DNA of 22,565 nt from positions 1 to 22,565 of IMG/VR virus record IMGVR_UViG_3300036830_000039; one strand, written 5' to 3'. The position numbers were made by a program, and so were the translations under genes. Shown piece after piece: positions 67-22,565 of the stretch. Position 1 is the first letter of the stretch, and every line of letters begins with the position of its first letter. This DNA is from a virus. The notes under the pieces were generated by a model that saw nothing but the letters and a program-made list of their open reading frames with translations, was not told the DNA's origin and ran no database searches.

Positions 67-772
67 GTTTAAACGCTTCCTTGGCTTGAGCCTCCAGGGT
101 GTCAGGCTCCAGGGTGTAGAGCGATGAGGCTGGAAGGCTCAGGGTTGGCCGGGGGCGGATGTCCCCAGGCATGAACACGGCTTGATGGTCTGTGACCATG
201 GGCCGGTGAACGCGGCTCCGGTGGTAGGCTGAGAGGCGAAGCCCCTTAGCGGCCCAGCGGTTAACGTCTTGCGGTCGGTCGAACCAGCGGCGCGCCTGCG
301 CAATCGAGGCGAAGGCGAACAAGCCGCCGTCTCCGGCGCTGAATGGCCCGAACGTCGTCCCTTGGTAGGGGCGAGCCGGGATGCCATCGGGGCCGGGGCC
401 GGGGCGACGCGGGTTGCGTCCGTCGCGGTAAGGGCTATCGGGCGGCAACAGCGAATGGCCGTTGAACTCCGCTAGATAGACGCCTTCACCGTCCGGCATT
501 TCAGGGTCATTGTTCGCCCCTCCCTTCACCTTCAAGCGGCCATGGAACTCGGCTAGACGCCGTTGCTCCTTTACCGCCTCCAGGTGCTCCAGGTACTCGA
601 AAGCCGCCGCAAGGGTCACGCCCAACGCCACCCCAACGCGCGCCACAGCCTGCCAGATGTGATCGAAGGCGGGCCAGATAGCGGCGATGAGGTCGCACAG
701 GAAGATGACAAGCGCGACGTGGAAGATGGCCCAACGTAGAGTGGGCCGGAAACTCGGAGATATGCGCTTCAT
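53..772 (-). CDS. Hypothetical membrane protein, two N-terminal helices
   Basis: A 239-residue protein of no family I recognise. Residues about 13-34 and 40-60 are hydrophobic and probably form two membrane helices. A charged helix follows (EYLEHLEAVKEQRRLAEFHGR), then a long soluble tail rich in Pro, Gly and Arg (residues about 85-239). It is the fourth gene of the leftward operon, 61 nt beyond the DoxX-like gene, and its end overlaps the next gene. The ATG at 772 has only a weak GGA ahead of it. A GTTTAAAC palindrome lies in its last codons (Phe-Lys encoded TTT AAA). It could be an inner-membrane accessory protein made early in infection, but that is inference from position alone. Confidence 0.7.
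   Translation of the reverse strand: MKRISPSFRPTLRWAIFHVALVIFLCDLIAAIWPAFDHIWQAVARVGVALGVTLAAAFEYLEHLEAVKEQRRLAEFHGRLKVKGGANNDPEMPDGEGVYLAEFNGHSLLPPDSPYRDGRNPRRPGPGPDGIPARPYQGTTFGPFSAGDGGLFAFASIAQARRWFDRPQDVNRWAAKGLRLSAYHRSRVHRPMVTDHQAVFMPGDIRPRPTLSLPASSLYTLEPDTLEAQAKEAFKHARV
67..74. promoter_or_regulatory. GTTTAAAC palindrome, site 1
   Basis: This is one of 11 copies of YGTTTAAACR in the window. On the minus strand it sits precisely between the Shine-Dalgarno sequence AAGGAAG and the ATG at 66. It also encodes Phe-Lys (TTT AAA) near the end of the upstream gene. Confidence 0.7.
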
Positions 773-801
773 GGGATGGTCCGTCGTCTGACGTTCACGC
801 C

Positions 802-819
802 CCCCGCCCGATTGCGGGG
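802..819. repeat. GC-rich hairpin between leftward genes
   Basis: CCCCGC (802-807) and GCGGGG (814-819) form a 6-bp stem with a 6-nt loop, in the 61-nt gap between the DoxX-like gene and the next leftward gene. There is no T-tract, so it is more likely an RNA-structure or processing element than a strong terminator. Confidence 0.4.
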
Positions 820-824
820 AGCGC

Positions 825-832
825 GTTTAAAC
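825..832. promoter_or_regulatory. GTTTAAAC palindrome, site 2
   Basis: Intergenic copy of YGTTTAAACR, starting two bases beyond the stop codon of the DoxX-like gene and next to the 802-819 hairpin. Confidence 0.65.
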
Positions 833-833
833 G

Positions 834-1283
834 TCACCTGAAAAAGTAGGCGTCCACAGACCAGCGGCCGGGACCTAAGCAGATCACGACGGCTAGAATG
901 AGGATGTAGAGCACTTCGGGCAGGTACAGGAAGCAATCGAGCCAATCCGCCAGGTTTAGCGGCTTCATCTCCGAGATGCGCTTCAGCCCGTCCACAGTAC
1001 AAGCGCCCAGGCACAAGAGGATGAGCCCGGCCGCTGCTACCGTGGAGAGACACCCGACTGTCACGCCCAGCCCGCCCGAGAACTCGGCGAGCGGGATGAC
1101 GTACATTAGAGCCGGGTGATACACGCCATCGGCCTTGAAGGTCTCTTGAAGCGTGAGCCGCCGGGTGGGCGAGCACAGCTTGTGAAACCCGGAGATGGCG
1201 AAGAACACCCCAACGCCCAACCGGCATATCGCGGCGGCTAGGTCGGGGGAGGCAAGCCCGTAGGCGAGAAAGGGGACGCTCAC
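834..1283 (-). CDS. DoxX-like integral membrane protein
   Basis: A 149-residue protein with four predicted membrane helices at about 16-36, 58-78, 80-99 and 118-137. The first helix has the DoxX-type pattern R-x-G-V-G-x-x-F-x-x-S-G-x-x-K-L (from R21), and the second has an AEFSGG stretch (about 66-71), like the conserved E-x-x-G-G of the family. DoxX-family proteins are bacterial inner-membrane proteins linked to redox or small-solute functions. A phage copy is unusual and its role here is unknown. The start is GTG at 1283-1281, chosen because a strong AAGGAGG lies just upstream and because it overlaps the preceding stop as GTGA, indicating translational coupling. Family assignment is by motif only. 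Confidence 0.72.
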   Translation of the reverse strand: MSVPFLAYGLASPDLAAAICRLGVGVFFAISGFHKLCSPTRRLTLQETFKADGVYHPALMYVIPLAEFSGGLGVTVGCLSTVAAAGLILLCLGACTVDGLKRISEMKPLNLADWLDCFLYLPEVLYILILAVVICLGPGRWSVDAYFFR

Positions 1284-1480
1284 GCGCCCCCCTCCTTCGC
1301 AAGCCGGACCAGGGACGCGGCGTCACGCGCCCGAAGGCGCGCAAGACCGGGTTCCCAGGTTTCGGCATCGTGAGCCGCGACGCACGCGCGTTCCATGAGG
1401 TACGCGGTATTTCTCGGCTCGGCTTTGTAGGTCTCCAGCATTGGGGCCGGAGAACCTTGGCGTAATTGAATTACGGCCAT
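1280..1480 (-). CDS. Small hypothetical protein (66 aa)
   Basis: The start chosen is ATG at 1480-1478 (MAVIQLRQGSP), preceded by AAGGGGA at good spacing. The frame can be extended upstream to 1648, but that extension overlaps the metalloprotease gene for 170 nt and has an Arg-rich, shadow-like composition. The protein is probably mostly helical after residue 15, with no membrane segment and one Cys. It overlaps the end of the metalloprotease gene by 10 nt and shares GTGA with the DoxX-like gene, so the three are co-translated. I do not recognise the family. Confidence 0.65.
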   Translation of the reverse strand: MAVIQLRQGSPAPMLETYKAEPRNTAYLMERACVAAHDAETWEPGLARLRARDAASLVRLAKEGGA

Positions 1481-2499
1481 TGGAAGTCCCCTTGTGTGTG
1501 AGTGAACAAACCGCCGTTGAACACGTAACGGCCAAGCTCTTGGCCGCTTGTGTCGCTGGCGACTACTGACGCGATGCGCTCGCCCTCTTTCGATTGCTTG
1601 CGCGCCGCTTGCTTCGCGGCCTTCAAGTCTGTGCCGAAGGTTCCCCATGCGTCATCCTCCGGCGTCGAGACGCGGAAGGATGCGCTTGCGGGCTTCGGTG
1701 CAGGTGAAGGCGCGGAAGCCCGCTCCTTGGCCTTGGGAGGCTTCGGGGCGGGCTTCGGTGCTTCGGCCGGAGGCTTGGGAGCCTCCGGGACCGCCTTGGC
1801 GGGCTTCTCAGGCTTGGGAGCCTTGGGAGCCTTGGGCTTCGGCTCAGGCTTGGGCTTGCGCTCAGGCTTGGGCTTCGGCGGGGGAGGCGGCAACGGCTCG
1901 TCGTCGTCATCCTCCGGCATCTCGGCGCGCATGATCTCGCCGCTGTGCTCCGGGTTGGGGCAAAGCGGCGGGCCATACTCGGCGAGCCATTTGGCCGCTG
2001 TGCGCACCGTGTAGCCGCAAAGCTCACAGTCGCATTTCAGCATCCGCGTGGTTTGCTTCTTGCGCTCGTTCAGGTTCAGACCGCCCGCCGGATAGTCGCC
2101 ATGTTCCGCGATCCATTGTTTAAACGTCTCGCGCAACGCTTCGCCTACCGTCGTCGCAGTCATCTTCCCTTCAAGGCCGACCGCAACGGCGGGCTGTTTA
2201 AACAGCTTGCCGTGTTTCGCCTTCGTGCCGACCGCCGCGTGAATAAGCTCGTGGATGAGAACCCCGAGGATCGTCACGCTATCGGTGAGCCGAGGCGAGA
2301 TGAACACTTCAAAGTGTCCATCGGTCGAAGCCATGGCGTCCCAGCATTCGCCGATGCGCTTGCCGCGCCCGCCAGTGCTAGGCCACCCGATTGTCACTCT
2401 CACACTCTCAGGGACTACGCACCCGACCGCCTCTAGCAGTCGGGCGCATTCGGCGCGGCCTTGTTCAAGCCACGCCTGCCTTTCGGCTGACGTTCCCAT
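1471..2499 (-). CDS. SprT-like zinc metalloprotease with Pro/Lys-rich linker
   Basis: A 342-residue protein starting at ATG 2499 (MGTSAERQ), with GGAG about 9 nt upstream; a TTG five codons earlier is less likely. Residues about 1-140 form a SprT-like domain: HELIH (H83, E84, H87) with a third zinc ligand H96 in HGKLF. A zinc ribbon follows (C156, C158, C161, C180, possibly H185), as in SprT proteins. Residues about 195-275 are a low-complexity Pro/Lys/Glu/Ala linker. A small C-terminal domain of about 70 residues ends in GDFQWP. SprT/SPRTN relatives cleave proteins bound to DNA; a role in clearing host proteins from phage DNA is inference. It is the first gene of the leftward operon. Two GTTTAAAC palindromes are embedded in the protease domain, each read as Phe-Lys. 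Confidence 0.85.
   Translation of the reverse strand: MGTSAERQAWLEQGRAECARLLEAVGCVVPESVRVTIGWPSTGGRGKRIGECWDAMASTDGHFEVFISPRLTDSVTILGVLIHELIHAAVGTKAKHGKLFKQPAVAVGLEGKMTATTVGEALRETFKQWIAEHGDYPAGGLNLNERKKQTTRMLKCDCELCGYTVRTAAKWLAEYGPPLCPNPEHSGEIMRAEMPEDDDDEPLPPPPPKPKPERKPKPEPKPKAPKAPKPEKPAKAVPEAPKPPAEAPKPAPKPPKAKERASAPSPAPKPASASFRVSTPEDDAWGTFGTDLKAAKQAARKQSKEGERIASVVASDTSGQELGRYVFNGGLFTHTQGDFQWP
1695..1900 (-). repeat. Low-complexity Pro/Lys/Ala coding repeat
   Basis: Imperfect short repeats (KPKPE, PKAPK and similar) encode the linker between the zinc ribbon and the C-terminal domain of the metalloprotease. The DNA repeats are degenerate GGCTTGGG/GGCTTCGG units on the plus strand. Confidence 0.75.
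2118..2125. promoter_or_regulatory. GTTTAAAC palindrome, site 3
   Basis: Copy inside the metalloprotease gene, read on the minus strand as ACG TTT AAA CAA (Thr-Phe-Lys-Gln), using TTT and AAA codons that are uncommon in this sequence. Confidence 0.65.
2196..2203. promoter_or_regulatory. GTTTAAAC palindrome, site 4
   Basis: Copy inside the metalloprotease gene, 78 nt from site 3, read as CTG TTT AAA CAG (Leu-Phe-Lys-Gln) just after the third zinc-ligand histidine. Confidence 0.65.
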
Positions 2500-2654
2500 A
2501 GTGCATTTCTCCAATAGTGGTTGCTGTGTCCCCGAGGTCGCGACGTGCGTTGCTCGGCTTCGCGGGCCTCCCCTTCGCTTACCTATGAACTAGGCGTACC
2601 CGATCCGCCACCACTAGCACGCCCCGGTTAACGAGGCAATAACGGATTGAGGCT

Positions 2655-2662
2655 GTTTAAAC
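2655..2662. promoter_or_regulatory. GTTTAAAC palindrome, site 5
   Basis: Intergenic copy of YGTTTAAACR, in the part of the control region that lies upstream of the leftward operon. Confidence 0.65.
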
Positions 2663-2695
2663 GCTTTCTCGCGTTGCCATGGTCGCGAGGTCAAC

Positions 2696-2713
2696 GGTAA
2701 GCCATCGCTTACC
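2696..2713. repeat. Perfect inverted repeat, operator-like
   Basis: GGTAAGC (2696-2702), a 4-nt spacer, then GCTTACC (2707-2713). The perfect 7-bp arms and short spacer suit a dimeric repressor site or a small hairpin; it lies between palindrome site 5 and the tandem repeat. Confidence 0.5.
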
Positions 2714-2778
2714 ATTCAGCATTGCCGGGCTTGGTACTCACGCGCGGCTCAAAGGGTGATCGCACAGCGGCAACCACT

Positions 2779-2786
2779 GTTTAAAC
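2779..2786. promoter_or_regulatory. GTTTAAAC palindrome, site 6
   Basis: Copy within the first 53-bp repeat unit; followed by the palindrome GTCGCGAC at 2790-2797. Confidence 0.7.
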
Positions 2787-2833
2787 GTCGTCGCGACTGG
2801 TGCTCAAAGGGTGATCGCACAGCGGCAACCACT

Positions 2834-2841
2834 GTTTAAAC
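2834..2841. promoter_or_regulatory. GTTTAAAC palindrome, site 7
   Basis: Copy within the second 53-bp repeat unit; followed by the palindrome GTCGCGAC at 2845-2852. Confidence 0.7.
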
Positions 2842-2988
2842 GTCGTCGCGACTGAACATGAGACGCATTCGCAAAAGACCGGGGTGGGGTGGGGCGTACC
2901 CCCCGATCCGGCGCGCGTGTAATATCGCCATGACTTCCTGTCGCACGCGGCCGATTTTCAAACGCGCCCCCTCGCAAACATAAGGGGC

Positions 2989-3017
2989 TTGACACTCCAC
3001 CCCGCGACGGCTACTGT
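2989..3017 (+). promoter_or_regulatory. Promoter P1 for the packaging operon (sigma70 type)
   Basis: TTGACA at 2989-2994, a 17-nt spacer, and TACTGT at 3012-3017. The extended upstream GGGGCTTGACA is shared with P3, and GGGGCTTGAC with P2. Counting 7 nt from the -10 puts the start of transcription at about 3024, the A of the small-terminase ATG, so the mRNA would be leaderless. No Shine-Dalgarno sequence precedes that ATG, which agrees. Confidence 0.82.
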
Positions 3018-3023
3018 TTGCAA

Positions 3024-3578
3024 ATGACCCAACTGCTTATCACCATCCCCGAGGAGGGCGACCTGGGACCGGCCATGAAGGCGCTGAGCCCCATGCAGCG
3101 GAACTTCATCTACGCCTTGGTCGAGACCGGCGGAAATCCGACGAACGCAGCCGCGGCGGCCGGGTACTGCCAGGACAACCAGGACCCGGAGGCGAAGCGC
3201 CGGAACCTCTCCAGCATCGGGAGCCAACTGATGCGGAAGCCGGGGATCGTGGCCGCGATCCAGGAGGAGAGCAAGAAGCGCCTCCTGACGGGCGGCTACC
3301 TCGCGGTGCAGAAGCTCCTGGACCTGATGGATCACCCGACCCCCTCCATCTCCCTCCGGGCGACGAACTCGATGCTCGACCGGATCGGGATGGGGGTCAC
3401 GAGCGAGCACAAGGTCGTGGTCGAGCACACCCGCACCGACCAGGAGATCATCGCGCGCATCAAGGAGTTGGCCACAGCCAAGGGCCTCGACCCGCAACTG
3501 TTCCTCGGCCGGAAAGCCGCGGAGCCCATCGACGCAGAGTTCACCCCGGTGGACGACCTCGGAGACATCCTGGCATGA
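3024..3578 (+). CDS. terS: Terminase small subunit
   Basis: A 184-residue protein. The region LSPMQRNFIYALVETGGNPT (residues 21-40) with the following AAAAAGY, then GSQLMRKPGIVAAI (66-79), matches the helix-turn-helix DNA-recognition part of Terminase_2-type small subunits. The C-terminal half is charged and helical, ending in an acidic tail likely to contact the large subunit. Its product binds phage DNA and starts packaging together with the large terminase encoded three genes on. ATG 3024 is chosen although no Shine-Dalgarno sequence is present, because P1 predicts transcription to start there; TTG 3018 in the same frame is the only close alternative and also lacks one. Confidence 0.85.
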   Translation: MTQLLITIPEEGDLGPAMKALSPMQRNFIYALVETGGNPTNAAAAAGYCQDNQDPEAKRRNLSSIGSQLMRKPGIVAAIQEESKKRLLTGGYLAVQKLLDLMDHPTPSISLRATNSMLDRIGMGVTSEHKVVVEHTRTDQEIIARIKELATAKGLDPQLFLGRKAAEPIDAEFTPVDDLGDILA

Positions 3579-3757
3579 GCAAGCGCAACCGCACCAAAGA
3601 GATCGACTACCTCGTGAAGCGCACGGCGCGCGAGCGATGGGGCAACTCCGACCACGGCACCATCGCCCCAACCATGAGCACTTGGCTTACGGTGGGCGCG
3701 ATCCCACCTGAGTTCCTCGGGCACGTCCTCGAACTGTGGAGAGACCGCAATGGCTAG
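3575..3757 (+). CDS. Small basic protein, possible helix-turn-helix
   Basis: A 60-residue protein whose ATG overlaps the small-terminase stop as ATGA, so it is translationally coupled. It is basic at the N-terminus (MSKRNRTKEIDYLVKRTARE). The segment IAPTMSTWLTVGAIPPEFL (residues about 30-48) recalls the recognition-helix turn of YdaS/Cro-type DNA-binding proteins, where a Trp precedes a short turn and a Pro. The resemblance is weak and could be chance. A small DNA-binding partner of the terminase or a regulator are both possible. Confidence 0.6.
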   Translation: MSKRNRTKEIDYLVKRTARERWGNSDHGTIAPTMSTWLTVGAIPPEFLGHVLELWRDRNG

Positions 3758-4076
3758 GAAGCCCAAGAAGGTGTTTAAACGGGTCCGCTGCAAAATCAGC
3801 GAGGCGGGCCGGGCTCTGGCCGAAGACCTGATGGTCGAGCTTGAGCAGATCGTGTCGAGCAAGAACCCGTACATCGGCCCGGACTACCGGGCGAACCTGG
3901 AACAGATGGCTGACCGGCTGGTGCTCCAGGCGGATCGGGTGGACATGACAGCGGCGTCGCTCGGGCTCACCCCCGAGGAGGCCGAGAACTGCGGGGCCGC
4001 CCAGCAACTCAAGCGGCTGATCCAGACAGTCACAGGGACGTGGTATGGCGGACGACCCCAACAGCCCGAGCTTTAG
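3750..4076 (+). CDS. Hypothetical protein of the packaging operon (108 aa)
   Basis: A 108-residue, mostly helical protein with a very basic N-terminus (MARKPKKVFKRVR). It overlaps the previous gene by 8 nt and the large-terminase gene by 32 nt, so it belongs to the same translationally coupled run. No membrane segment or known motif is visible. The GTTTAAAC palindrome at 3773 falls in codons 8-11, read GTG TTT AAA CGG. A role beside the terminase is inferred only from position. Confidence 0.65.
   Translation: MARKPKKVFKRVRCKISEAGRALAEDLMVELEQIVSSKNPYIGPDYRANLEQMADRLVLQADRVDMTAASLGLTPEEAENCGAAQQLKRLIQTVTGTWYGGRPQQPEL
3773..3780. promoter_or_regulatory. GTTTAAAC palindrome, site 8
   Basis: Copy of YGTTTAAACR 23 nt inside the start of the gene at 3750, read as Val-Phe-Lys-Arg. 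Confidence 0.6.
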
Positions 4077-5520
4077 CCGCGCCGAGCTTCTCCAGGCCCT
4101 CGAACTTCTGGAGACGATGGATGCGCGGCAACGGTTCCATCGCATCGACTTCTTCACGCCGTATCCCAAGCAGGAAGCGTTTTTCCAGATGGGGGCGGTC
4201 AAGCGCGAGCGGCTGCTCATCGCGGCGAACCAGGTCGGCAAGTCTGAAGCGGGCGCGGTCGAGGCGAGCTACCACCTGACGGGTGAGTACCCGGCGTTGT
4301 GGGGCGGGCACCGCTTTGACCACCCGGTGCGCATGTGGATCGCGGGCGAGGCTGGGGTGCCGGTGCGGGACATCCAGCAGAACAAGTTGATGGGCACGCC
4401 GGGGGTCCTGGCGGACATCGGGACCGGCTACATCCCCAAGGCCAACATCCTCGACGTGAGCCTGGCCCGCGGCGTCACGGACGCCTACGATACCATCCAG
4501 GTCAAGCACAAGTCGGGCGGCACGAGCACGGCCAGCTTCAAGAGCTACGAGCAGGGGCGCACCAAGTTCCAGGGTGAGCCGGTGGACTTCATCTGGCTGG
4601 ACGAAGAATGCCCCATGGACATCTACACCGAGTGCCTGACGCGGACCAACACCGGCACGCGCGGCAAGGGCGGCAAGCTCATCACCACCTTCACCCCGCT
4701 GAAGGGGAAGACGGCGGTGGTGGCGCGCTTCATTGATGAGGAGAGCCCCGACCGCGGCATGGTCACGATGACCATTGAGGACGCGCTCCACTACACCCCC
4801 GAGCAGCGCAAGGCCATCATCGCCTCCTACCCGGCGCACGAGCGCGACGCCCGCACGAAGGGCATCCCCATGCTCGGCGAGGGGCGCGTGTTCCCCTACC
4901 CCGACAGCGCGATCCTGGAGGACCCGCTCACCTACATCCCGGAGCATTGGGTGAAGCTGTGGGGCATCGACTTCGGCATCGCCCACCCGTTCGCCGCGGT
5001 GCTCATCCTGTGGGACAAGGACAACGATGTCATCCACGTCCACCACGCGATCAAGTTCAGCGACGGGCTCCCGATCAATCACGCCGCGGCCATGCGCCCA
5101 ATAGGCGCGGCGGTCCCGGTAGCCTGGCCCCATGACGGCAACAACCGGGAGAAGGGGTCGGGCGAGAGCCTGTCGAAGGCGTACCGCAAGGACCCCTGCA
5201 ATCTCCTTCTGCTGCCTCAGCACTCGACGTTCCCCGAGGGGGGCTACTCCCTGGAGGCGGGCGTGATGGAGCTTCAGCAGCGGATGACGACCGGCCGCCT
5301 GAAGGTCGCCGCGCACTTGGCCTCGTGGATCAACGAGTTCCAGATGTACCACCGCAAGGATGGGCTCATCGTCGCGGTCAATGACGACCTTCTGTCGGCC
5401 ACGCGCCAGGCGATGATGATGCGCCGGTATGCGCGGGCGGTGCCGCTCGGGGGCAAGTCCCCGAAGCGGTCGAGCCAGCAAGTCGCCGAGGGGCTTGACT
5501 TCGACCTATTCGGCACGTAA
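4045..5520 (+). CDS. terL: Terminase large subunit (packaging ATPase-nuclease)
   Basis: A 491-residue protein, full length for the family. The ATPase half has a Walker A-type loop AANQVGKS (residues 60-67), Walker B VDFIWLDEE (180-188, with D186 and E187) and the coupling motif ITTFTP (213-218). The nuclease half begins near GIDFG (307-311), with D309 the likely first metal ligand. It cuts concatemeric phage DNA and drives it into the prohead through the portal encoded downstream. The ATG at 4045 follows AGGGAC and overlaps the previous gene by 32 nt. Promoter P2 lies in its last codons, and the TAA stop forms part of the P2 -10 element. Confidence 0.96.
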   Translation: MADDPNSPSFSRAELLQALELLETMDARQRFHRIDFFTPYPKQEAFFQMGAVKRERLLIAANQVGKSEAGAVEASYHLTGEYPALWGGHRFDHPVRMWIAGEAGVPVRDIQQNKLMGTPGVLADIGTGYIPKANILDVSLARGVTDAYDTIQVKHKSGGTSTASFKSYEQGRTKFQGEPVDFIWLDEECPMDIYTECLTRTNTGTRGKGGKLITTFTPLKGKTAVVARFIDEESPDRGMVTMTIEDALHYTPEQRKAIIASYPAHERDARTKGIPMLGEGRVFPYPDSAILEDPLTYIPEHWVKLWGIDFGIAHPFAAVLILWDKDNDVIHVHHAIKFSDGLPINHAAAMRPIGAAVPVAWPHDGNNREKGSGESLSKAYRKDPCNLLLLPQHSTFPEGGYSLEAGVMELQQRMTTGRLKVAAHLASWINEFQMYHRKDGLIVAVNDDLLSATRQAMMMRRYARAVPLGGKSPKRSSQQVAEGLDFDLFGT

Positions 5521-5523
5521 TCT
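5495..5523 (+). promoter_or_regulatory. Promoter P2 at the end of terL
   Basis: TTGACT at 5495-5500, a 17-nt spacer, and TAATCT at 5518-5523, preceded by GAGGGG as in P3. The promoter is built into the last codons of terL and its stop codon. Predicted start is about 5530, just ahead of the hairpin at 5536-5556. It would drive the small genes, the portal and the scaffold. Confidence 0.7.
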
Positions 5524-5535
5524 AGCATCGCCCCC

Positions 5536-5556
5536 ACCAACGGCTCCCTCGTTGGT
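5536..5556 (+). other. 5'-leader hairpin downstream of P2
   Basis: ACCAACG (5536-5542) pairs with CGTTGGT (5550-5556) around a 7-nt loop. If P2 starts near 5530 this hairpin would stand almost at the 5' end of the mRNA, where it could protect the transcript. It could instead be a weak terminator for the terminase transcript; there is no U-tract. Confidence 0.5.
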
Positions 5557-5572
5557 CCAGGGAAAGCGGATA

Positions 5573-5593
5573 CCGCGGCCCTCTCGTCCGCGG
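5573..5593 (+). other. CCGCGG-N9-CCGCGG stem
   Basis: Two copies of CCGCGG (5573-5578 and 5588-5593) can pair across 9 nt, forming a second GC-rich stem in the leader upstream of the gene at 5620. Confidence 0.4.
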
Positions 5594-5619
5594 AACGGGG
5601 GCATTATTCGGAGGGCACC

Positions 5620-5829
5620 ATGCCGCACTTCCTCGCCTTCATCGTGATCTTCCTGTCCGGCCCGGACGGCAAGCCCGCGATCCAGATGACCGGCTTCCAG
5701 GCTGCGAGCATGGAGGCGTGCCAAGCGGAGGCCGCCCTCGCCGCGAACTCGATCTCCCAGCGACCGGGCGTGAGTTATGTGTCCGCCGGGTGCGTCGAGG
5801 TCCGCAACCCGAAAGAGCAGGCGGCCTAG
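5620..5829 (+). CDS. Small protein, possibly exported, two cysteines
   Basis: A 69-residue protein with a good GGAGG ahead of its ATG. The N-terminus is hydrophobic (HFLAFIVIFLSG, residues 3-14) but lacks a positive charge before it, so it may be a weak signal peptide or a buried beta strand. Two Cys (C34 and C58) are placed as in small periplasmic disulfide proteins. It is the first gene after promoter P2. I do not recognise a family. Confidence 0.65.
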   Translation: MPHFLAFIVIFLSGPDGKPAIQMTGFQAASMEACQAEAALAANSISQRPGVSYVSAGCVEVRNPKEQAA

Positions 5830-5832
5830 GCC

Positions 5833-6048
5833 ATGCCCAGCACGAATGTCAAGAACCTGCCAATCAGCCCGGCGGCGTCAGACCTCGGGCTGGGGGACCA
5901 GTTGATCCAGCAAATCCAGGATGACGATGAGGAGCGCAAGAAGCGCCTCCTCGCGCAGGCCAACCAAGCGGCCGGGCAGGGTCCGGGTTCGCTGGCCATG
6001 AGCCCGGCGGTGGCGTCCCTGATGTCAGGCAGAGTGAGCGGGATATGA
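5833..6048 (+). CDS. Small pre-portal protein (71 aa)
   Basis: A 71-residue hydrophilic protein with a charged helix in the middle (about residues 22-42, DDDEERKKRLLAQ) and flexible Gly/Ser/Pro-rich ends. It is joined to the preceding gene by the junction TAG GCC ATG and to the portal gene by ATGA, so its translation is coupled on both sides. There is no clear Shine-Dalgarno sequence. The composition suits a short adaptor or assembly factor; function unknown. Confidence 0.7.
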   Translation: MPSTNVKNLPISPAASDLGLGDQLIQQIQDDDEERKKRLLAQANQAAGQGPGSLAMSPAVASLMSGRVSGI

Positions 6049-7811: not shown

Positions 7812-8098
7812 ACATCATCGAGCGGACGCTCGCCTTCCTTAGGCGGCGTCGGCTGGCGTACAAGCTGGCCTTCAATCTCGATCACCCCGCCGCGCAGATG
7901 GTCCTGGAAGACCTCCAGAAGTTCTGTCGCGCGAGCGAAGAAATCATCTCAACAGACGCTAGTAAAATGGCGTATCTGGAGGGACGACGCAGCGTGTGGT
8001 TGCGCATTCAGCGCCATCTACACTTGACCCCGGAGCAGCTAATGCTGCTGTATGCGGCTCCTAACCTCAGAATTGCAGAGGATGATAACCATGACTGA
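7808..8098 (+). CDS. Bbp19-like small virion protein
   Basis: A 96-residue protein between portal and scaffold, the place taken by Bbp19-type proteins in BPP-1-like phages. It has a basic helical N-terminus (RTLAFLRRRRLAYKLAF), then a pattern like the Bbp19 family: a short segment ending in VLEDLQKFCRAS (about residues 32-43) and an EGRRSVWLRIQRHL helix (about 57-70). It overlaps the portal stop by 4 nt and the scaffold start by 8 nt. The stretch from about 7940 to 8090 is richer in A/T than its neighbours. The Bbp19 assignment rests on position and a faint pattern. Confidence 0.65.
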   Translation: MNIIERTLAFLRRRRLAYKLAFNLDHPAAQMVLEDLQKFCRASEEIISTDASKMAYLEGRRSVWLRIQRHLHLTPEQLMLLYAAPNLRIAEDDNHD

Positions 8099-8945
8099 CA
8101 CCCCCGCCAACGGCGACACGGGTGGCGCACCGGCTGGAGCCGACAGCGCCGCTTGGATCGCCTCTCTCGATGAGGATAGCCGCGGCTACCTCACCAACCG
8201 CGGCCTGCATGACAAGCCGCTCGCCGACATCGCCGCCGCTTCGATCAAGGCGCACCGGGAGGCTGAACGCCTGCTCGGCCGCCCGGCGACGGACTTCCTC
8301 ATCAAGCCCAAGGACGCCTCGGACGAAGCCAATCACCAGGCGATCCGCGATTTCCTCGGGGTGCCCAAGGACGCCACCGGCTACAAGTTCGACGGCCTGA
8401 AGTTCGCGGACGGCACCGACCTCGATCCGGCCACTCAGGACTGGCTCCGCGGCGTGGCCACGAAGATCGGCCTGCCCGCCGAGCGCGCGGGCGAGTTCGC
8501 CCAGGAGTTCATCAGGTTCTCCGACGCGGCCGAAGCCGACGCGAGCGCCGAGACGACCGCCAAGGTCGAGGAGGGCCGCGCCGCGCTCAAGGCGAATTGG
8601 GGGCAGAGCTACGACGCCAACATGGTCGTGGCCAAAAATGCCTTCAGCACCGTGATGCAGGAGAGCGGGCTCACCCCCGAGCAGTACGGCGAGGCCATGA
8701 CCGCCCTGGAGAACCAGGTCGGCTACAAGGGCCTCATGGAGGTCTTCCGCACCATCGGCCTGAAGATGGGCGAGGACAAGTTCGTCTCCAACGACGCCAA
8801 GACGGGCCTGATGACCCGCGATGGCGCGACGGCGAGGCTGAACGAACTCAAGGCGGACCAGGCGTGGGTGACGCGCCTGAACAACGGCGACACCGCCGCC
8901 CGCAAGGAGTTCGAGCAACTCACCACGATCATGTCGGCGGACTAG
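8091..8945 (+). CDS. Capsid scaffold protein
   Basis: A 284-residue acidic, Ala-rich, helical protein immediately before the capsid genes, as expected for a podovirus scaffold. The N-terminal third contains the usual scaffold-type sequence WIASLDEDSRGYLTNRGL (about residues 22-39) followed by AHREAERLLGRPATDFLIK, and the remainder is coiled-coil-like. It would guide assembly of the prohead and then leave. ATG 8091 is preferred over upstream in-frame starts because AGAGG lies about 10 nt ahead of it; the gene overlaps the previous stop. Confidence 0.85.
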   Translation: MTDTPANGDTGGAPAGADSAAWIASLDEDSRGYLTNRGLHDKPLADIAAASIKAHREAERLLGRPATDFLIKPKDASDEANHQAIRDFLGVPKDATGYKFDGLKFADGTDLDPATQDWLRGVATKIGLPAERAGEFAQEFIRFSDAAEADASAETTAKVEEGRAALKANWGQSYDANMVVAKNAFSTVMQESGLTPEQYGEAMTALENQVGYKGLMEVFRTIGLKMGEDKFVSNDAKTGLMTRDGATARLNELKADQAWVTRLNNGDTAARKEFEQLTTIMSAD

Positions 8946-8948
8946 GCC

Positions 8949-9297: not shown

Positions 9298-9302
9298 GGG
9301 GC

Positions 9303-9331: not shown

Positions 9332-9407
9332 CAGCCTGGGTCGCCCCCTCATACGCCTGAAGCCGGTTCGCGCAAGCGTCCGGCGCGTGGAGGGGAGACC
9401 TGGGGCT

Positions 9408-9449: not shown

Positions 9450-9468
9450 GACTTCAAGCGGACACACC

Positions 9469-9476
9469 GTTTAAAC
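9469..9476. promoter_or_regulatory. GTTTAAAC palindrome, site 9
   Basis: Intergenic copy of YGTTTAAACR in the capsid leader, about 130 nt downstream of the P3 start point and 73 nt before the capsid ATG. Confidence 0.65.
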
Positions 9477-9549
9477 GGCCCCGCGTCAGACTGCCCGGCC
9501 CCCTTTTGGACACGGCCACGAACCCAACCCGTGAACCCAAGAGGACATC

Positions 9550-13672: not shown

Positions 13673-13675
13673 GCC

Positions 13676-16600: not shown

Positions 16601-17470
16601 GGGGTCTTCGGCTCGGGCACCACGGCCAAGGGCGGCAAGGTCAAGATCACCACGGTTGCCGCGGCGTCGATTGATGCAGCCTGGACCGGCATCAACGTGG
16701 AGAGCGCGATCTATGATGAGACGGACGGCAACGTCATCGTCCTGTTTGTGGGCAGCAACAGCAACTACTACCTGACGAAGCTGAACGCGCACACGGGCGC
16801 GATCATGTGGAAAATCCTGGTGGCCTCCAGCGTCCCCTTCTGGCAATCGCGCGTGCGCGGTGGTCGGTTCACGATGGTGAGCGGCTCGGGCTCGCCCTGG
16901 ACCCTCCTGGAAGTGGATACCATCGCGGGCACCGCCAACACGTCCACCACCGAGAGCGTTATCGGCCCCGATACGTTCGCCAGCGACGACAAGACGGGCC
17001 AGATCGTTGTGCAGGTGGGCGACATCGGCACGACCGATTGGGCGACCTTCGGCCCGAACTCCGGCGGTGGCGCGATCACCCCGGCGGGCTACTACATCGC
17101 ACCGCAATCGCTCGGGTTCAACTACACGAGCAAGTGGCAAATCCTGCGCACCATCGACCCCCAGCAGGCGGGCTCGCAGAACGGCCCGGCCATGGGCAAG
17201 ACGCGCCGGGTCCACATGCACGCCACGCTCCTGGCGAACACGCAGGGCGTGCAGTTCGGCACCGACTTCTCCAAGCCGATGCGTACCGGCAAGCTGCTGA
17301 CGGCCGGACGCTCGACGGAGATCGCCAAGAACGTCTTGTTCACGGGCGTGATCCAGGATACACTGGAGGACACCTACAGCTTCAACAGCATGTGGGCGGC
17401 TCAGACCACGAGGCCGTACCCGACCACCATCGTGTCGGTCGAGTGCTTCCTCCATACGCAGGACAGGTGA
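13676..17470 (+). CDS. Giant tail nozzle / stabilisation protein (1264 aa)
   Basis: A 1264-residue protein with the N-terminal signature of podovirus tail-nozzle or stabilisation proteins: FLGGEWSPYAQGRADEEAYR (about residues 11-30), then NGIPLEVGAVTRRPGT (38-53). Its C-terminus (RRVHMHATLLANTQGVQFGT onward) is also typical. Relatives I know are nearer 700-850 residues. The surplus includes a CBM5/12-like module at about 300-347 (W-A-S-G-T-T-Y-S-K-G-T-N-V-K-Y, then a Trp) and a long beta-repeat part at about 770-1150, with short blocks such as GNIYYGTADGSNLVGQF suggesting a beta-propeller. It forms the tail tube below the adaptor. It is joined to the adaptor by TAG GCC ATG. Confidence 0.85.
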   Translation: MADASFLQANFLGGEWSPYAQGRADEEAYRTGMNLCYNGIPLEVGAVTRRPGTIFCATTRKGVAGVLRQFHFSQNAPYNMEFTPLHMRLFAGQALLVKEQRTVASISTANPAEVAVMVAETWATGDEIEFACTPISGASPAGPSPLFNRQFEITVIDSQHFTLADPVTGAGFDGSVLDLSGWEVSVSKVVDFTTPYTAAQLQSLRVVQDEDTALILHNSWAPRALEATTAPVAGAPAVFSFTTPTFLDGPYLDAPSDGSYLTVSGISGTINVTASSIASINGGAGFVSTDVGRMLRLFSEPDAWASGTTYSKGTNVKYNNAYFQAIAKSTGIEPDTDNGTNWVVTTTAAQWTWALITVILSTSEVTVVLQPGGLLDRYQQPLAGGPLLYNNHINTWQLGLYSDTTGYPTCGCFYEGRFYLAGCIPNRFDATMSNENFNFAPTLLDGTVADNNGMAEILKGEDRNTIFWMVGTSAGIAAGTQGGEWSIQASQLNEPLSPTSIQAHKVTKYGCANVEPRNTGLSHVFVQRYQKQVFEYLTDVFSGKFIGTNISRKAKHLTSDGIAEIAYQAELAPIVWARTNTNKLIGCTYKRESPFSTQPASFMGWHQHTLGSGRAVESIQAGPSPDGTLDSLMLITNDTATGIRYVELLTPIFEETGKITDAWFLDAAVVPTASEVKTVAGHLSVVFYGLDYIAGKTITAWIGGVDAGDYTVSASGTITVPIDGSANPLLTQALLATLTTENDFGVIGASILVTPQGQGFFSPVGAALDYVSSSSAPLHYTRGNFDFDGNRLYHEQATHSGDAGTNGHSMFIFNIKTQAQVDGPVAPGELAFASPGVTCMGYDGNIYYGTADGSNLVGQFNTTSYVNTTYSDTHSLAAAGYVAALTDGTDQFVVVTGLNSGQGSPAHSAPLYIIQMTPTPMAVPLSGPQVEGGYLDYFDEAPGSIAPGNAYPFRGPKGSAFVLCVVGTDAGFYRVGVFGSGTTAKGGKVKITTVAAASIDAAWTGINVESAIYDETDGNVIVLFVGSNSNYYLTKLNAHTGAIMWKILVASSVPFWQSRVRGGRFTMVSGSGSPWTLLEVDTIAGTANTSTTESVIGPDTFASDDKTGQIVVQVGDIGTTDWATFGPNSGGGAITPAGYYIAPQSLGFNYTSKWQILRTIDPQQAGSQNGPAMGKTRRVHMHATLLANTQGVQFGTDFSKPMRTGKLLTAGRSTEIAKNVLFTGVIQDTLEDTYSFNSMWAAQTTRPYPTTIVSVECFLHTQDR

Positions 17471-17471
17471 G

Positions 17472-18143
17472 ATGGCTGGCGGTAGCATCGACTTCGGCGG
17501 GTTGGGCGGCGCGGTCTCGGGGCTGTTCGGTGCATTCGGCGACTTCGCCGAGGCCAAGGCGTACAAGACGGCCAGCCAACTGGCCATGCAGAACGCGGTC
17601 ATCACTGAGGAAGCCACCAAGCTCCAGGAGACCCAGGCCAACCGGCAAATCTTCAAGACGCTGGGCGCGCAAGCTGCTCAGGTCGGCGGCGCGGGCCTGG
17701 CGGCCAGCGGGTCGGCCATGGACCTCTTGCGGTCGAGCGCGCAACAGGGCGCGCTGACGAAGCAGTTGATCCAGGCTCAGGGCCTCATCACGCAGCAAGG
17801 CTTCGAGGCTGAGAGCGCGCAGTATCAGGGCATGGCGTCGGCGGCCAAGAGCGCCGGAACCGGCGGCATCTTCGGCTCGATCCTTAAGGGCATCGGCGCG
17901 GTTATCCCCTTCCTGTCTGACGCCAGCCTGAAGGAGAATATCGTGAAGGTGGGCGAGCGGCCGGATGGCATCGGTTACTTCCAGTACAACTGGAAGGGCT
18001 CGCCCGACACCACCTATGTCGGTCTGGTCGCGCAGGATGTGCGCCGCGTGCGGCCGGAAGTGGTGTCTATTGACGACGGCGGCTATCTCATGGTGGACTA
18101 CGCGGCGCTCGATGAGTGGCCCCTAGTCCTGCGGAGTGTTTAA
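17472..18143 (+). CDS. Internal virion protein fused to a peptidase S74-like domain
   Basis: A 223-residue protein. Residues 1-147 are Ala/Gln/Gly-rich and helical, with a Gly-rich hydrophobic N-terminus and the pattern LITQQGFEAESAQYQGMASA (105-124) before GGIFGSILKGIGAVIPFL, like T7 gp14-type internal virion proteins that enter the cell envelope at DNA ejection. Residues 149-223 resemble an intramolecular chaperone: SDASLKENI (S149 and K154 spaced as in the Ser-Lys pair), then GLVAQDVRRVRPEVV and VDYAAL. S74 domains usually end tail fibres and cut themselves off. If active here, cleavage would free the internal protein. The TAA stop is inside a GTTTAAAC palindrome. Confidence 0.75.
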   Translation: MAGGSIDFGGLGGAVSGLFGAFGDFAEAKAYKTASQLAMQNAVITEEATKLQETQANRQIFKTLGAQAAQVGGAGLAASGSAMDLLRSSAQQGALTKQLIQAQGLITQQGFEAESAQYQGMASAAKSAGTGGIFGSILKGIGAVIPFLSDASLKENIVKVGERPDGIGYFQYNWKGSPDTTYVGLVAQDVRRVRPEVVSIDDGGYLMVDYAALDEWPLVLRSV

Positions 18144-18145
18144 AC
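18138..18145. promoter_or_regulatory. GTTTAAAC palindrome, site 10
   Basis: The palindrome supplies the TAA stop of the upstream gene and ends directly against the ATG at 18146, with GGAG at 18133-18136 upstream: Shine-Dalgarno, palindrome, start codon, the same arrangement as site 1. Confidence 0.7.
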
Positions 18146-19876
18146 ATGCCCGGCAACATTGTCGAGTACAACAACCCCATCGACACCCTGCACCCGTCTG
18201 AGCAGGGCGTTCAGGCCGCCGTGCAGGCCGGTCGCCGCATCGGCGTGTTCTATCACCAGATGGGCGAGGATGTGGGCGGCGCGGTCGCCGAGGTTGGCAA
18301 GCAGTACCAGGACGAAGTGACGCGCCAGCAGGTGAGCCACGGGCTCGCCGCGCAGTCCCAACTGTGGGCGTCGCTGACGGATAGCTGGAACCAGACGGCC
18401 AAGGGCGCGGACCCGAATGACCCCAGCGTCGCCGCCAAGTGGCGGACGGAGCAACTGGAGCCCGCACTCCAGGCGTGGGGCAACGCCTTCACCACGACGC
18501 AGGGGAAGACCTACGCGGCCGAGGAGATGGCGCGGATGCGCCAGCACTTCACCGAGAGCACCCAGGCCGACCAATCGACCCTGGCCGGGATCGCTTCGGT
18601 GCAGAACCTCATCACCATGGGCGAGCAGTACAAGCAGACGGCCTTCAATGACCCGTCATCGCTCGATACGATCCTGGGCGCGCTAGACAAGGGCTATCGC
18701 GCCAGCGTGTCCATGCACACCGCCATGAGCGCCGAGGAGGCCGCCCGCGTCACGGGCGAGCCGCTGACGCAGATGAAGGCCGCGGTCGCCAAGTCGGCTA
18801 TCGAGGGCATGATCGAGAGCGGCCCCAACGGCATCGCGGAGGCGCGCCGCCTCCTGGCCAGCGGCAAGTACGCCGAGTACATCGGCGATCCTACGGAACT
18901 CCTCAACCGGGCGACGGCCACCGAGGAGCGCAACAACTCGATGCAGCGCCAGCAGACCGAACTGGATGAGCACACCGACCGCATCCAGGGCGAGGCCGCA
19001 GGCTCGGCGATCTTCAACGACATCAGCGCCACCATCCGGGCTGGCGGCCAGCCGACGCCCACGCAGATCAAGGCGGCTTCTGACTGGTCCAACCATGACA
19101 CCGGCCATGGCACCACCTGGGGCGGCCTCATCCCTGGTCGCAACGACGCACTCCAGAGCCTCCTCGACCGGAGCATCACCGACGCGAACTCGATGCGCTT
19201 CCAGACCTCGAACCCCCAGGTCACGGAGGGCTTCTATAACCGCGCCCTGTTCGACAGCAGCGACCCCAATGCCCTCACTCAGGCAGAAGTGGACAAGGCG
19301 TTTACGGTGGACCACACCATCTCCTCAGACGATCACCAGCGGCTCACCGAGGAGCTTCGGAAGCGGGACAAGCCGAACAGCGACATGATGCAGGCGACGA
19401 AGCTGCTCGACCAGAACCTCATGTCCACGATGCGCCCCTTCCTCACCAACGCCCCGGCGCTGAACGCAGACGGGACGCCCAACATCCTGGGCACCGGGGG
19501 CCACGATCCGAACGGCACGGCGGCCTGGGGCGAGGCCCGGCGCGAGAGCCGCGAGGTTCTCCAGGCGTGGGTGCGGTCTGGCAAGACGCCGATGGAAGCG
19601 GTCGAGATTATGACCAACCCGGCGAACAACCGCAACTTCATCCAGCGCCTCCAGTATTTCAAGCAGGCGGTCGCGAGCGGCAACTCCATGGCCTTCTTCG
19701 GCCACAACCCCCTCCCGGTGACGTACAATCCGGCGCTGGGGGCTGGACAACAGCAGGGTGCTGGTGGTACAGGTATTGCCCCCGGCCCGGACTTCCACGT
19801 CACTGGCGGGCCGGGCCAGATGAGGCGGCCGGGTGAGAGCCCGGAGGCGTTCCTCGCTCGAACCGGAGGTCACTAA
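18146..19876 (+). CDS. Internal virion protein (576 aa)
   Basis: A 576-residue, mostly helical, Gln/Ala/Glu-rich soluble protein (QAAVQAGRRIGVFYHQMGED near the start; ends in a Gly/Pro-rich tail) without membrane segments. Its place between the gp14-like gene and the large hydrolase-bearing gene corresponds to the T7 gp15-type internal core protein, which helps make the ejection channel. No motif confirms it. ATG 18146 is preferred to the in-frame GTG 18116 because GGAG lies 9 nt ahead of it and the longer form would overlap the previous gene. Confidence 0.72.
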   Translation: MPGNIVEYNNPIDTLHPSEQGVQAAVQAGRRIGVFYHQMGEDVGGAVAEVGKQYQDEVTRQQVSHGLAAQSQLWASLTDSWNQTAKGADPNDPSVAAKWRTEQLEPALQAWGNAFTTTQGKTYAAEEMARMRQHFTESTQADQSTLAGIASVQNLITMGEQYKQTAFNDPSSLDTILGALDKGYRASVSMHTAMSAEEAARVTGEPLTQMKAAVAKSAIEGMIESGPNGIAEARRLLASGKYAEYIGDPTELLNRATATEERNNSMQRQQTELDEHTDRIQGEAAGSAIFNDISATIRAGGQPTPTQIKAASDWSNHDTGHGTTWGGLIPGRNDALQSLLDRSITDANSMRFQTSNPQVTEGFYNRALFDSSDPNALTQAEVDKAFTVDHTISSDDHQRLTEELRKRDKPNSDMMQATKLLDQNLMSTMRPFLTNAPALNADGTPNILGTGGHDPNGTAAWGEARRESREVLQAWVRSGKTPMEAVEIMTNPANNRNFIQRLQYFKQAVASGNSMAFFGHNPLPVTYNPALGAGQQQGAGGTGIAPGPDFHVTGGPGQMRRPGESPEAFLARTGGH

Positions 19877-22565
19877 GTGCCCACTCCTGGCGTCACCCCT
19901 ATGCCCCCGGTCGCTCCGGGGCAAGCCCAACTGGACAGCCTCGCGGAGCACGGCTTTACCGCCTCTGAGATCGCGCAATATCGCCAGCGCCAGAACGAGC
20001 GCCTGGTGCAGGGTGGCTTCGACGCGGACAGCATCAACAAGTATTGGGGCTCGAACCAAGGCTCCCCCATCGTCCAGGGCTTCACCGCCTCGAACGTCCA
20101 GCAGCACTTGGCCGCAGGCACCACGCCGCCGCTGCACTGGTACGACTACCTCAAGGCGGGCTGGGACCACAGCGTCACCGGCCTGGTGCTCAGCCACGGG
20201 CAGGACAGCAACGTCAACCTCGCTGGGAAGGGCCTGGGGGCCGGTCTCCTATACAGCCTGGGGCAACTGCCCGGCGACCTCCCGTGGGCCTACGGCGGCG
20301 CTGTGGGTGGCTCCGCGGCCGGTGGCGGGCCGGAGGATGGGGTCGGCATACTGACAGGCGGCTTCGGTGCGGCCGCGTTCCCCGAGGCCAGCCGTCAGAC
20401 GCTCATCGCAGCGCACAACGCGGGCCAGATACACTCGTGGCAGGACGCCCTCCAGGTGGCGTCGCACGGCGGCTGGGAGACCCTGAAGCAGGGCGCGGCG
20501 TCGGCGCTGGGGATGCGGGCCATGGGGCCGGTCGGCGGCGCTGTGTTCCGGGCGACGGGTAGCGAAGCCGCGGCGAACGTGGCGGGCGCGACGGCGAACG
20601 TGGCAACCACGACAGTGGCGTCATCGGCCGAGCAGGGGCGTATGCCCACGGCTCAGGACTTCCTGCTTGGCGCGACCACTCTGGTAGCGGCGCACGTCAG
20701 CGGCGTCGGCGTGGCGCGGGTGCGGACCAACATGCAGAAGGTGTGGGGCTCGACCGGGCTCACCCCCGTGGAGCAAGTGCAGCGGGCTCAGGCGGACCCG
20801 GCCTTCCGCCAGGAGCTTCTGCAACAGGACGTGCAGGGCGAGCCCGTGACGCCGCGCTGGCAAGCGACCGCGCATGACGACCCGCCGTCCCTGATGAAGC
20901 CGCCGCCGGGCTACCGCGGCCCGAGCCGGTCGCAACTGATGAGCAGCGCCGCCCCGCGCGCCATGGAGCCGCTGCACGCACAGCCCACCTTCGTATCCGG
21001 GGTCCAGAGCGCCATGGGCGTGCTCCGCTCCCTGGAGGCGTCCGGCCCGAACGCCGTGAGCCCGATGGGCGCGGTCGGTGAATACCAGATCATGCCCGGC
21101 ACGGCCAGACAGTACGGCTTCGACCCGGCGCGGCTGAAGGACCCTCAGTACAACGAGGCCGCGGCGCGCGTCATCGTCTCTGACCTCTACCGCCGGTACA
21201 ACGGCAACATGGACGCCATCGCCGTCGCCTACAACGCCGGACCCAGCCGGGCGAACGCCTATCTAGCCGCTGGCCCCGGCACACGCTTGGAGGCGACGGT
21301 GGACCCGACCGTCCGCGGCGGCATCCGCTACACCCGCGTGCCCGCCTCCAAGAATGAGGCGATGCTCCCCTTCGAGACGCAGAAGTACCTGGCCCTCAAG
21401 CGCCAGCACGAGAGCGTCAACCCCGGCGCGGAACCGCTCCCGAGCGGCGGCCACGTCCTGATGGACCCCGATACGAGGCTGCGTTTAAACGCGATCCGGT
21501 CGAACCCGGAGGGCGAGTTCAGCCGCATCATCGGGTCGCAGGTGCGCATCACGTCGGCCGAGCGCAGCGCCGAGCACAATGCCCAGCTTCCGGGCTCCTC
21601 CAAGACGAGCGAGCACCTGGCCAGCAACTTCGCCGCGGGCTACGGCGCGTGGGACATCACCGTCCCCGGCAAGACCAACCAGGAGGTCATCAGCCTCCTC
21701 CAGCGCGCGGGCCTTCCTTTTGACCAGTTGATCGAGGAGGGCGACCACGTTCACATCGGGTTCGGCCCGCAGACCCGCGGTGAGGTCTTCACCATGCGCA
21801 ACGGCAAGGTGGTAGGCGGGAGCCCAGCGAACGAGCGGCCGGACGGGCGGCCGATCCCGAGCTACGACGCCAACCAGCGCCCCGAGAGCTTCGAGGCGGT
21901 CAACGCCGAGAACCCCGAGATGCGGGAGCCCGACAAGTCCCTGTCCGCCGCCGAGGTCTGGCCCAGCGCCACGGATGACGACCTGGTGTCCGGCACCCTG
22001 GAGAACGTGGGCGAGCGCCCGAAGTCGAGCATAGCCGACTTGGCGAACCCCGACCGACTGCTGACGCACTTCTTCTCGGAGCTTCAGCCCGCCCGGAACA
22101 TCGACAACCAGTTGGTCCGCGAGGGCCTGATGGACCGCAAGACCGACTTCGGCGCGGAGGACGCCATGCGCCAGACCTACGCCAGCGACGCGCGGGCGGG
22201 CGTGTGGGTACGGTACGGCCAGATCGACAGCCCTGATACCAAGAACATCGTGGAGGGCTCTCACAGCCTCCTGGACGCCGTGCGCACCATGCGCGAGAAC
22301 GGCGGCGACCCGGACGGTTTCCGCGCCTACATGCTGAACCAGCGGACGATGCAGAAGTCCACCGAGTTCCTGGACAAGGCCAAGGCCGCCTACGAGCTTG
22401 CTGTGGCCGAGGACGCGGCCAAGAGCACCAAGAGCACCAAGGCCAAGGTCGATGCGGCTCAGAAGGCCCTGGAGGCGATCACGAGCGGCGAGGCCGAGGA
22501 GGGCATCAACACCGGCTTCAACCCGCTCATCGCCAAGGAGATGCTATCCCGCGACAGCTTCAACA
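19877..22565 (+). CDS. Large internal virion protein with transglycosylase and M15-like peptidase domains (partial)
   Basis: An open frame of 896 visible codons starting at GTG 19877, directly after the TAA of the previous gene (TAAGTG), and still open at the window end. GGAGG lies upstream in AACCGGAGGTCAC. Residues about 380-470 form a lytic transglycosylase (SLT) domain: catalytic E387 in LEASG, then SPMGAVGEYQIMPGTA (395-410) and AYNAGP (451-456). Residues about 555-630 resemble an M15-type metallopeptidase: SEH with H580, WDI with D593, and HVH with H626 as zinc ligands. Residues about 110-165 are Gly/Ala-rich and hydrophobic. It corresponds to T7 gp16-type proteins ejected to open the cell wall. 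GTTTAAAC at 21483 lies between the two domains. Confidence 0.85.
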   Translation, partial: MPTPGVTPMPPVAPGQAQLDSLAEHGFTASEIAQYRQRQNERLVQGGFDADSINKYWGSNQGSPIVQGFTASNVQQHLAAGTTPPLHWYDYLKAGWDHSVTGLVLSHGQDSNVNLAGKGLGAGLLYSLGQLPGDLPWAYGGAVGGSAAGGGPEDGVGILTGGFGAAAFPEASRQTLIAAHNAGQIHSWQDALQVASHGGWETLKQGAASALGMRAMGPVGGAVFRATGSEAAANVAGATANVATTTVASSAEQGRMPTAQDFLLGATTLVAAHVSGVGVARVRTNMQKVWGSTGLTPVEQVQRAQADPAFRQELLQQDVQGEPVTPRWQATAHDDPPSLMKPPPGYRGPSRSQLMSSAAPRAMEPLHAQPTFVSGVQSAMGVLRSLEASGPNAVSPMGAVGEYQIMPGTARQYGFDPARLKDPQYNEAAARVIVSDLYRRYNGNMDAIAVAYNAGPSRANAYLAAGPGTRLEATVDPTVRGGIRYTRVPASKNEAMLPFETQKYLALKRQHESVNPGAEPLPSGGHVLMDPDTRLRLNAIRSNPEGEFSRIIGSQVRITSAERSAEHNAQLPGSSKTSEHLASNFAAGYGAWDITVPGKTNQEVISLLQRAGLPFDQLIEEGDHVHIGFGPQTRGEVFTMRNGKVVGGSPANERPDGRPIPSYDANQRPESFEAVNAENPEMREPDKSLSAAEVWPSATDDDLVSGTLENVGERPKSSIADLANPDRLLTHFFSELQPARNIDNQLVREGLMDRKTDFGAEDAMRQTYASDARAGVWVRYGQIDSPDTKNIVEGSHSLLDAVRTMRENGGDPDGFRAYMLNQRTMQKSTEFLDKAKAAYELAVAEDAAKSTKSTKAKVDAAQKALEAITSGEAEEGINTGFNPLIAKEMLSRDSFN
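21483..21490. promoter_or_regulatory. GTTTAAAC palindrome, site 11
   Basis: Copy of YGTTTAAACR inside the large internal-protein gene, read CGT TTA AAC GCG (Arg-Leu-Asn-Ala). It uses the Leu codon TTA, which is rare in this sequence, in the linker between the two hydrolase domains. Confidence 0.65.

Follow-up and report, generated by a model that had tools for sequence, protein, structure and literature searches.

A dispersed octamer network accompanies a SprT-like gene in unrelated phages and suggests a putative phage control system

Octamer sites in the window

The virus record IMGVR_UViG_3300036830_000039 is a complete IMG/VR record of 22,565 bp with a guanine-plus-cytosine (GC) content of 65.6%, and its whole length is the stretch of DNA analyzed here (hereafter the window). 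It represents a podophage fragment with genes for the terminase large subunit (TerL), a portal-type head-tail adaptor, and capsid proteins. A preliminary description of the window had listed 11 copies of the palindromic octamer GTTTAAAC, and every coordinate that it gave was exact. In this study, we characterized these sites together with the SprT-like gene (PHROG 6361) that contains two of them, which turned out to be the only protein family common to the phage lineages with such networks. The features are listed below, the octamer sites without strand; genes of the window were called with our own simple codon-based caller.

67-74, GTTTAAAC site, directly upstream of a leftward gene start (GTTTAAACATG on the minus strand)
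825-832, GTTTAAAC site, just past the stop of the leftward gene 834-1283
1471-2499, minus strand, SprT-like metalloprotease-family gene, candidate reader (HExxH...H, zinc-ribbon Cys, PHROG 6361)
2118-2125, GTTTAAAC site, within the SprT-like gene
2196-2203, GTTTAAAC site, within the SprT-like gene
2655-2662, GTTTAAAC site, divergent intergenic region, ~159 bp upstream of the SprT-like start
2747-2799, plus strand, unit 1 of the 53-bp tandem repeat, contains one site
2779-2786, GTTTAAAC site, divergent intergenic region, in copy 1 of the 53-bp tandem repeat
2802-2854, plus strand, unit 2 of the 53-bp tandem repeat, contains one site
2834-2841, GTTTAAAC site, in copy 2 of the 53-bp tandem repeat
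3773-3780, GTTTAAAC site, 27 bp inside the small gene 3750-4076
4045-5520, plus strand, terminase large subunit gene, which marks the window as phage
9469-9476, GTTTAAAC site, 77 bp upstream of the major capsid gene
18138-18145, GTTTAAAC site, overlaps the end of gene 17472-18143, for which it provides the TAA stop, and is followed directly by the next ATG (18146)
21483-21490, GTTTAAAC site, within gene 19901-22564

About 0.03 copies of GTTTAAAC are expected in this length, and dinucleotide shuffles of the window contained a mean of 0.04 copies and a maximum of 1, compared with the 11 observed. Every TTTAAA hexamer in the window (11 in total) is part of a GTTTAAAC copy, and octamers that differ from GTTTAAAC by one substitution are absent, indicating that the word is sharp. 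The pyrimidine before and purine after each copy, which had been taken to extend the palindrome, are present at 11 of 11 sites in the window; this flank is loose in relatives, where 65 of 88 half-sites (44 sites in six GTTTAAAC contigs) have the pyrimidine. Seven of the 11 sites fall in the first 2.9 kb, as had been described, and those at 2779 and 2834 are not independent because both belong to a perfect 53-bp tandem duplication. When synonymous codons were shuffled within the called genes, 0.023 in-gene copies were expected compared with the 5 found. This result indicates selection on the DNA itself, in agreement with the preliminary description.

Variation of the network among related podophages

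A megablast search of the window against a phage collection gave no match. We compare here about 180 related loci, among which, like the window, several are fragments, and the octamer classes were defined in the course of looking. GTTTAAAC was found in a few of these loci (L005, 6 copies; L108, 9; L122, 8; L091, 3; L154, 3), and the L005 homologue of the leftward gene has CTTTAAACATG at the place matching the window site at 67. At comparable or higher density, GTTTAAAC is replaced by CTTTAAAG in L096, L097, L099, L101, and L160, and by GTGTACAC in L086, L092, and L164; the relative G008 has 25 copies of CTTTAAAG in 20 kb. The complete-sized relatives G018 to G030 have no copy of GTTTAAAC, CTTTAAAG, or GTGTACAC. 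No network was found either in prophages of 44 bacterial genome contigs with related portals, or in the Rhizobium phages RHph_N3_2 and RHph_N2 and the Microcystis phage MJing1, which have related TerL proteins and no PHROG 6361 gene. The network is thus lineage specific, and relatives swap words or have none.

Within the CTTTAAAG group, 13 of 16 in-gene sites at aligned positions were kept between G008 and G009. Between G010 and G011, 4 of 5 were kept, with a third-position identity of 76% for conserved residues. Where a site was lost, its codons can revert to TTC AAG with the protein unchanged. Loss of the motif in relatives had been named in advance as an outcome that would speak against a functional site. 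Such loss does occur, but one gene is lost alongside the sites, which makes it informative rather than refuting.

Some relatives have repeated words of other kinds. CCAATGG/CCATTGG, an odd-length near-palindrome, occurs 52 times in the network-free G023 (L217-L219) compared with 6.3 expected, and the non-palindromic words CCGCATTCGC and CCGCATAAGC occur 10 times in G018 (L202-L204) and 5 times in G007 (L195-L196), respectively.

The SprT-like gene accompanies the network

Protein clustering of 31 contigs showed that a single family, SprT-like and matching PHROG 6361, was encoded by each of the 8 networked contigs that extend to the locus and is absent from the 15 relatives that have no network (Fisher's test, 2e-6, not corrected for phylogeny). 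An independent six-frame search with PHROG 6361 in 21 of these contigs agreed with the clustering. The unrelated complete podophage ctDrO704 (MW202512) also carries nine GTTTAAAC copies, and one site precedes the start of its SprT-like gene by 15 bp.

For a protein-first test, viral contigs were scanned with an alignment of the SprT-like family, which gave 80 partly redundant loci. These contain 486 copies of GTTTAAAC compared with 14.8 expected, and 27 copies of the reversed word compared with 35.4 expected. A strongly enriched palindrome was found in 58 of the 80 SprT loci but in only 8 of 221 control loci, and most of these 8 are fragments of network phages. Among cultured phages, GTTTAAAC is present in Methylophilales phage Venkman (34 copies), Dinoroseobacter phages R26L (20) and R5C (17), Pseudanabaena phage Pan1 (16), Mica, Arya, and KA2-1 (7 each), and Persinger and ep3 (4 each); the hosts of GTTTAAAC phages comprise Dinoroseobacter, Pseudanabaena, Methylophilales, Burkholderia, and enterobacteria. 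Actinophages use GTTTACAC, with 40 copies in Microdon (50 of 53 kb read), 21 in Crewmate, 14 in Percival, and 13 in bacteriophage 4A (0.03-0.22 expected), and the hosts of the GTTTACAC phages are Arthrobacter, Microbacterium, and Streptomyces. The phage Lego, which has a PHROG 6361 gene, carries 25 copies of GTTTACAC, and the actinophages Danzina, Eddasa, Shady, GMA4, Footloose, and RadFad, which lack PHROG 6361, carry none.

A network of one of four words was found in 104 of 115 SprT-bearing records. All the words share one build, in which a half-site GTTT, GTGT, or CTTT is joined to a reverse complement of one. Across 16 phage lineages, the SprT-like protein was detected in 12 by blastp, in 4A, Percival, and Microdon by tblastn, and in ctDrO704 by a hidden Markov model; the next most widespread family, a DNA polymerase, was found in 5 of 16. 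On the SprT tree, the motif class changes 12 times compared with a mean of 18.2 after shuffling, and none of 200 shuffles gave a value as low. The SprT-like family is the only one common to these lineages. The preliminary description had left the reader of the octamer unnamed, and the PHROG 6361 protein is now a candidate.

The same Microbacterium foliorum strain is the host of Percival and of Dismas, and only Percival has a network, which shows that the host does not set it. Two other candidates for a common reader were discarded: a sigma-like "DNA-binding protein" adjoins the SprT-like gene but is limited to actinophages, and a ParB-like gene was found only in ctDrO704 (L286:3940-4788).

Positions of the sites

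Positions were counted for 233 sites in 18 genomes, some of them related, with our own gene calls. The sites are enriched in intergenic regions (83 compared with 28 expected), within 30 bp upstream of gene starts (36 compared with 9.9), and at gene ends (27 compared with 3.9). Among 29 dereplicated phages, 11 have a site within 200 bp upstream of the SprT start, compared with 2.6 expected from their own site density. In the Iiscvirinae phages ep3, KA2-1, Arya, and Mica, the site of the SprT promoter stands just after a -10-like box (TATAAT, TATAAT, TAAAAT, and TACAAT, respectively), ~20 bp before the start codon.

Across the networks, the site density is 0.2-1.3 per kb, and sites occur in all reading frames. 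Most large networks are evenly spaced, with coefficients of variation of 0.38 (R26L), 0.44 (G008), 0.51 (Pan1), 0.55 (Microdon), and 0.57 (Crewmate) compared with ~0.95 for random placement; unlike these, the Venkman sites are clustered. The two strands of GTTTACAC are used 14 and 7 times in Crewmate and 21 and 22 times in Microdon. In Crewmate and Percival, the SprT-like gene lies within about 3 kb of the integrase gene. In KA2-1, Mica, and Persinger (L376, L377, and L378), it is adjacent to the integrase gene, where immunity repressors are usually encoded.

Properties of the SprT-like protein

The AlphaFold model of the window protein (predicted local distance difference test score of 88) comprises a minimal metallopeptidase followed by a zinc-ribbon-like part. 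Over residues 1-125, it matches abylysin (Z = 9.0), selecase (Z = 8.9), and SPRTN (Z = 8.2; 6mdx, residues 1-116), whereas the Foldseek E-values of the model are weak by themselves. His83, Glu84, His87, and His96, which form the HExxH...H zinc site, and the zinc-ribbon residues Cys158 and Cys161 are invariant in 22 aligned sequences, and a GLEGKMTAT motif is mostly conserved across the family. The only Pfam match was PF10263, with most members below its cut-off, while PHROG 6361 matched strongly; a PDB sequence search with the SprT profile gave no real match. The DNA-protein-crosslink proteases SPRTN and SprT and the protein ArdC share the metalloprotease fold, the HExxH...H site, and the zinc-ribbon cysteines with the phage family. 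However, they are not known to read a network of short palindromes; distinctive features of the phage family are the GLEGKMTAT motif and the association with the octamers.

Discussion

We propose, with a probability of about one-half, that the SprT-like protein or an obligately linked partner reads the octamer and acts by stoperator-like repression or as a roadblock. Bound at its own promoter, the reader would repress itself; at gene starts, at gene ends, and along entire operons, its binding would stop transcription, so that phage genes might be kept silent or timed. The site network suggests a previously unrecognised phage control system, one that could fill the place of the missing immunity system in some temperate phages. 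Of the roles considered in the preliminary description, a dispersed, putative protein-binding site under DNA-level selection, with stoperator-like logic, is the one that gains support.

Several observations weigh against this reading. Strict one-to-one correspondence between gene and network is broken by Arthrobacter phage SWEP2 (ON528933; L444 and L447-L449), which has 20 copies of GTTTACAC but no detectable PHROG 6361 gene, and by Dismas, CN1, and Epa43, which have the gene but no such octamer; an alternative octamer was sought in these three and in G440 and G441, and none was found. The 4 sites of the Escherichia coli phage ep3 (0.9 expected) are weak evidence alone. No known sequence-specific DNA-binding fold was recognised in the SPRTN-like metalloprotease structure. 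In addition, many sites lie mid-gene and the tables for R5C and Microdon note no integrase, so that prophage repression is not obviously the role everywhere.

Two of these phages showed further features. SWEP2 has a stretch without a SprT-like gene between a sigma-like gene and a recombinase gene, and its sites without a gene recall phage D29, whose repressor gene is partly lost. Bordetella phage CN1 (L420-L422), with its SprT-like gene and no GTTTAAAC network, contains eight copies of the word TAGATAGATA compared with 0.0 expected.

Because the protein has a protease fold, two rival explanations have to be weighed, both of which we consider unlikely. According to the first, the SprT-like protein reads the octamer but is no repressor; evenly placed sites would load the protease along the genome, where it would clear away or cleave proteins that bind or are crosslinked to the phage DNA, such as host silencers, restriction complexes, or stalled polymerases. 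The invariant catalytic HExxH...H site, the resemblance to SPRTN, and the regular spacing in R26L, G008, Pan1, Microdon, and Crewmate are consistent with this idea, and ArdC is reported to be a metalloprotease-domain anti-restriction protein (PMC7213743). However, protection that depends on length does not predict the enrichment at gene starts, at gene ends, and at the SprT promoter, nor does even loading fit the clustered sites of Venkman.

According to the second, the octamer is read by another factor, encoded by the host or by a different phage gene, which the SprT-like protease cleaves, as IrrE/ImmA proteases do with their repressors. The persistence of the SWEP2 network without the gene, the conserved protease fold and active site, and the failure to recognise a DNA-binding domain all favor such a separate reader, but the lineages have no further phage protein in common. 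A host reader in particular is improbable because Percival and Dismas differ in the same host strain and members of one podophage family differ in their motif.

A third explanation, that the octamers are highly iterated palindromes of the HIP1 type imprinted on the phage by host methylation and mismatch repair, is very improbable: although octamer palindromes in all reading frames at a density close to that of HIP sites, one per kb (PMC4390886), would suit it, GTTTACAC is not a palindrome, presence follows the phage gene rather than the host, the proteins of the network phages include no shared methylase family, and 385 alphaproteobacterial genomes showed no enrichment.

Three other roles were not supported. 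A genome-wide host motif found no backing in 17 genomes and the 385 alphaproteobacterial genomes, although the host of the window may not be among them, and GC-rich bacterial genomes are usually depleted of the motif. A modification target is disfavored by the lack of a common methylase family among the phage proteins (host methylases not searched), and partition sites by the lack of a ParB-like family common to the lineages. Separately, we observed that many GC-rich genomes contain several times fewer copies of TTTAAA flanked by G/C than of its reversed control (15 compared with 175 in a Pandoraea genome).

The association bears on cultured phages. Lysogens formed by Arthrobacter cluster AZ phages show immunity, for which no repressor is known, and these and Microbacterium cluster EH phages have been shown or proposed to be temperate and homoimmune with no recognisable repressor (PMC8758107). 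Both clusters have the gene and the sites (Lego and Percival), making the SprT-like gene a concrete candidate for their immunity repressor. A family annotated only as a protease or as of unknown function is now linked to a DNA code that runs through whole genomes of phages from widely differing bacteria; should binding be demonstrated, it would represent a novel type of sequence-specific DNA reader, one based on a metalloprotease fold, for which changes in specificity are already available as a natural series. A more far-reaching version, in which a metalloprotease-fold protein has turned into a sequence-specific reader with swappable half-sites (GTTT, GTGT, and CTTT) and either represses for immunity or silences transcription throughout the genome in phages that infect several bacterial phyla, possibly with a protease-based switch-off, is tentative and rather doubtful.

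We found nothing relevant on GTTTAAAC, GTTTACAC, or GTGTAAAC in phages in the open literature, and no description of these octamers. Highly iterated palindromes, both HIP1 and the alternate cyanobacterial ones, are likewise dispersed octamer palindromes in and between genes. They are, however, features of host genomes tied to orphan methylases (PMC4390886), whereas the octamers described here are phage features tied to the SprT-like gene.

The closest parallel is provided by the stoperators of cluster A mycobacteriophages such as L5 and Bxb1, in which 20-30 repressor sites are spread over the phage genome, most of them not at promoters. The dispersal is alike, again with most sites away from promoters, and in both systems the motif varies between related phages, in cluster A along with the repressor. 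By contrast, the cluster A site is asymmetric, 13 bp long, and oriented with transcription, while the sites here are an 8-bp palindrome or a two-half-site octamer of no fixed orientation. The cluster A reader is a helix-turn-helix immunity repressor, whereas the sole shared family here is the PHROG 6361 relative of SprT metalloproteases. In cluster A, the bound protein blocks transcription elongation and gives immunity; here, sites and genes were read. Repressor operators scattered over one phage genome are also represented by the conserved inverted repeats of phiC31, the c1 operators of P1, and SPBRE of SPbeta, which have different sites and unrelated repressors and are each confined to one phage group. 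The network described here spans unrelated phages of Proteobacteria, cyanobacteria, and actinobacteria.

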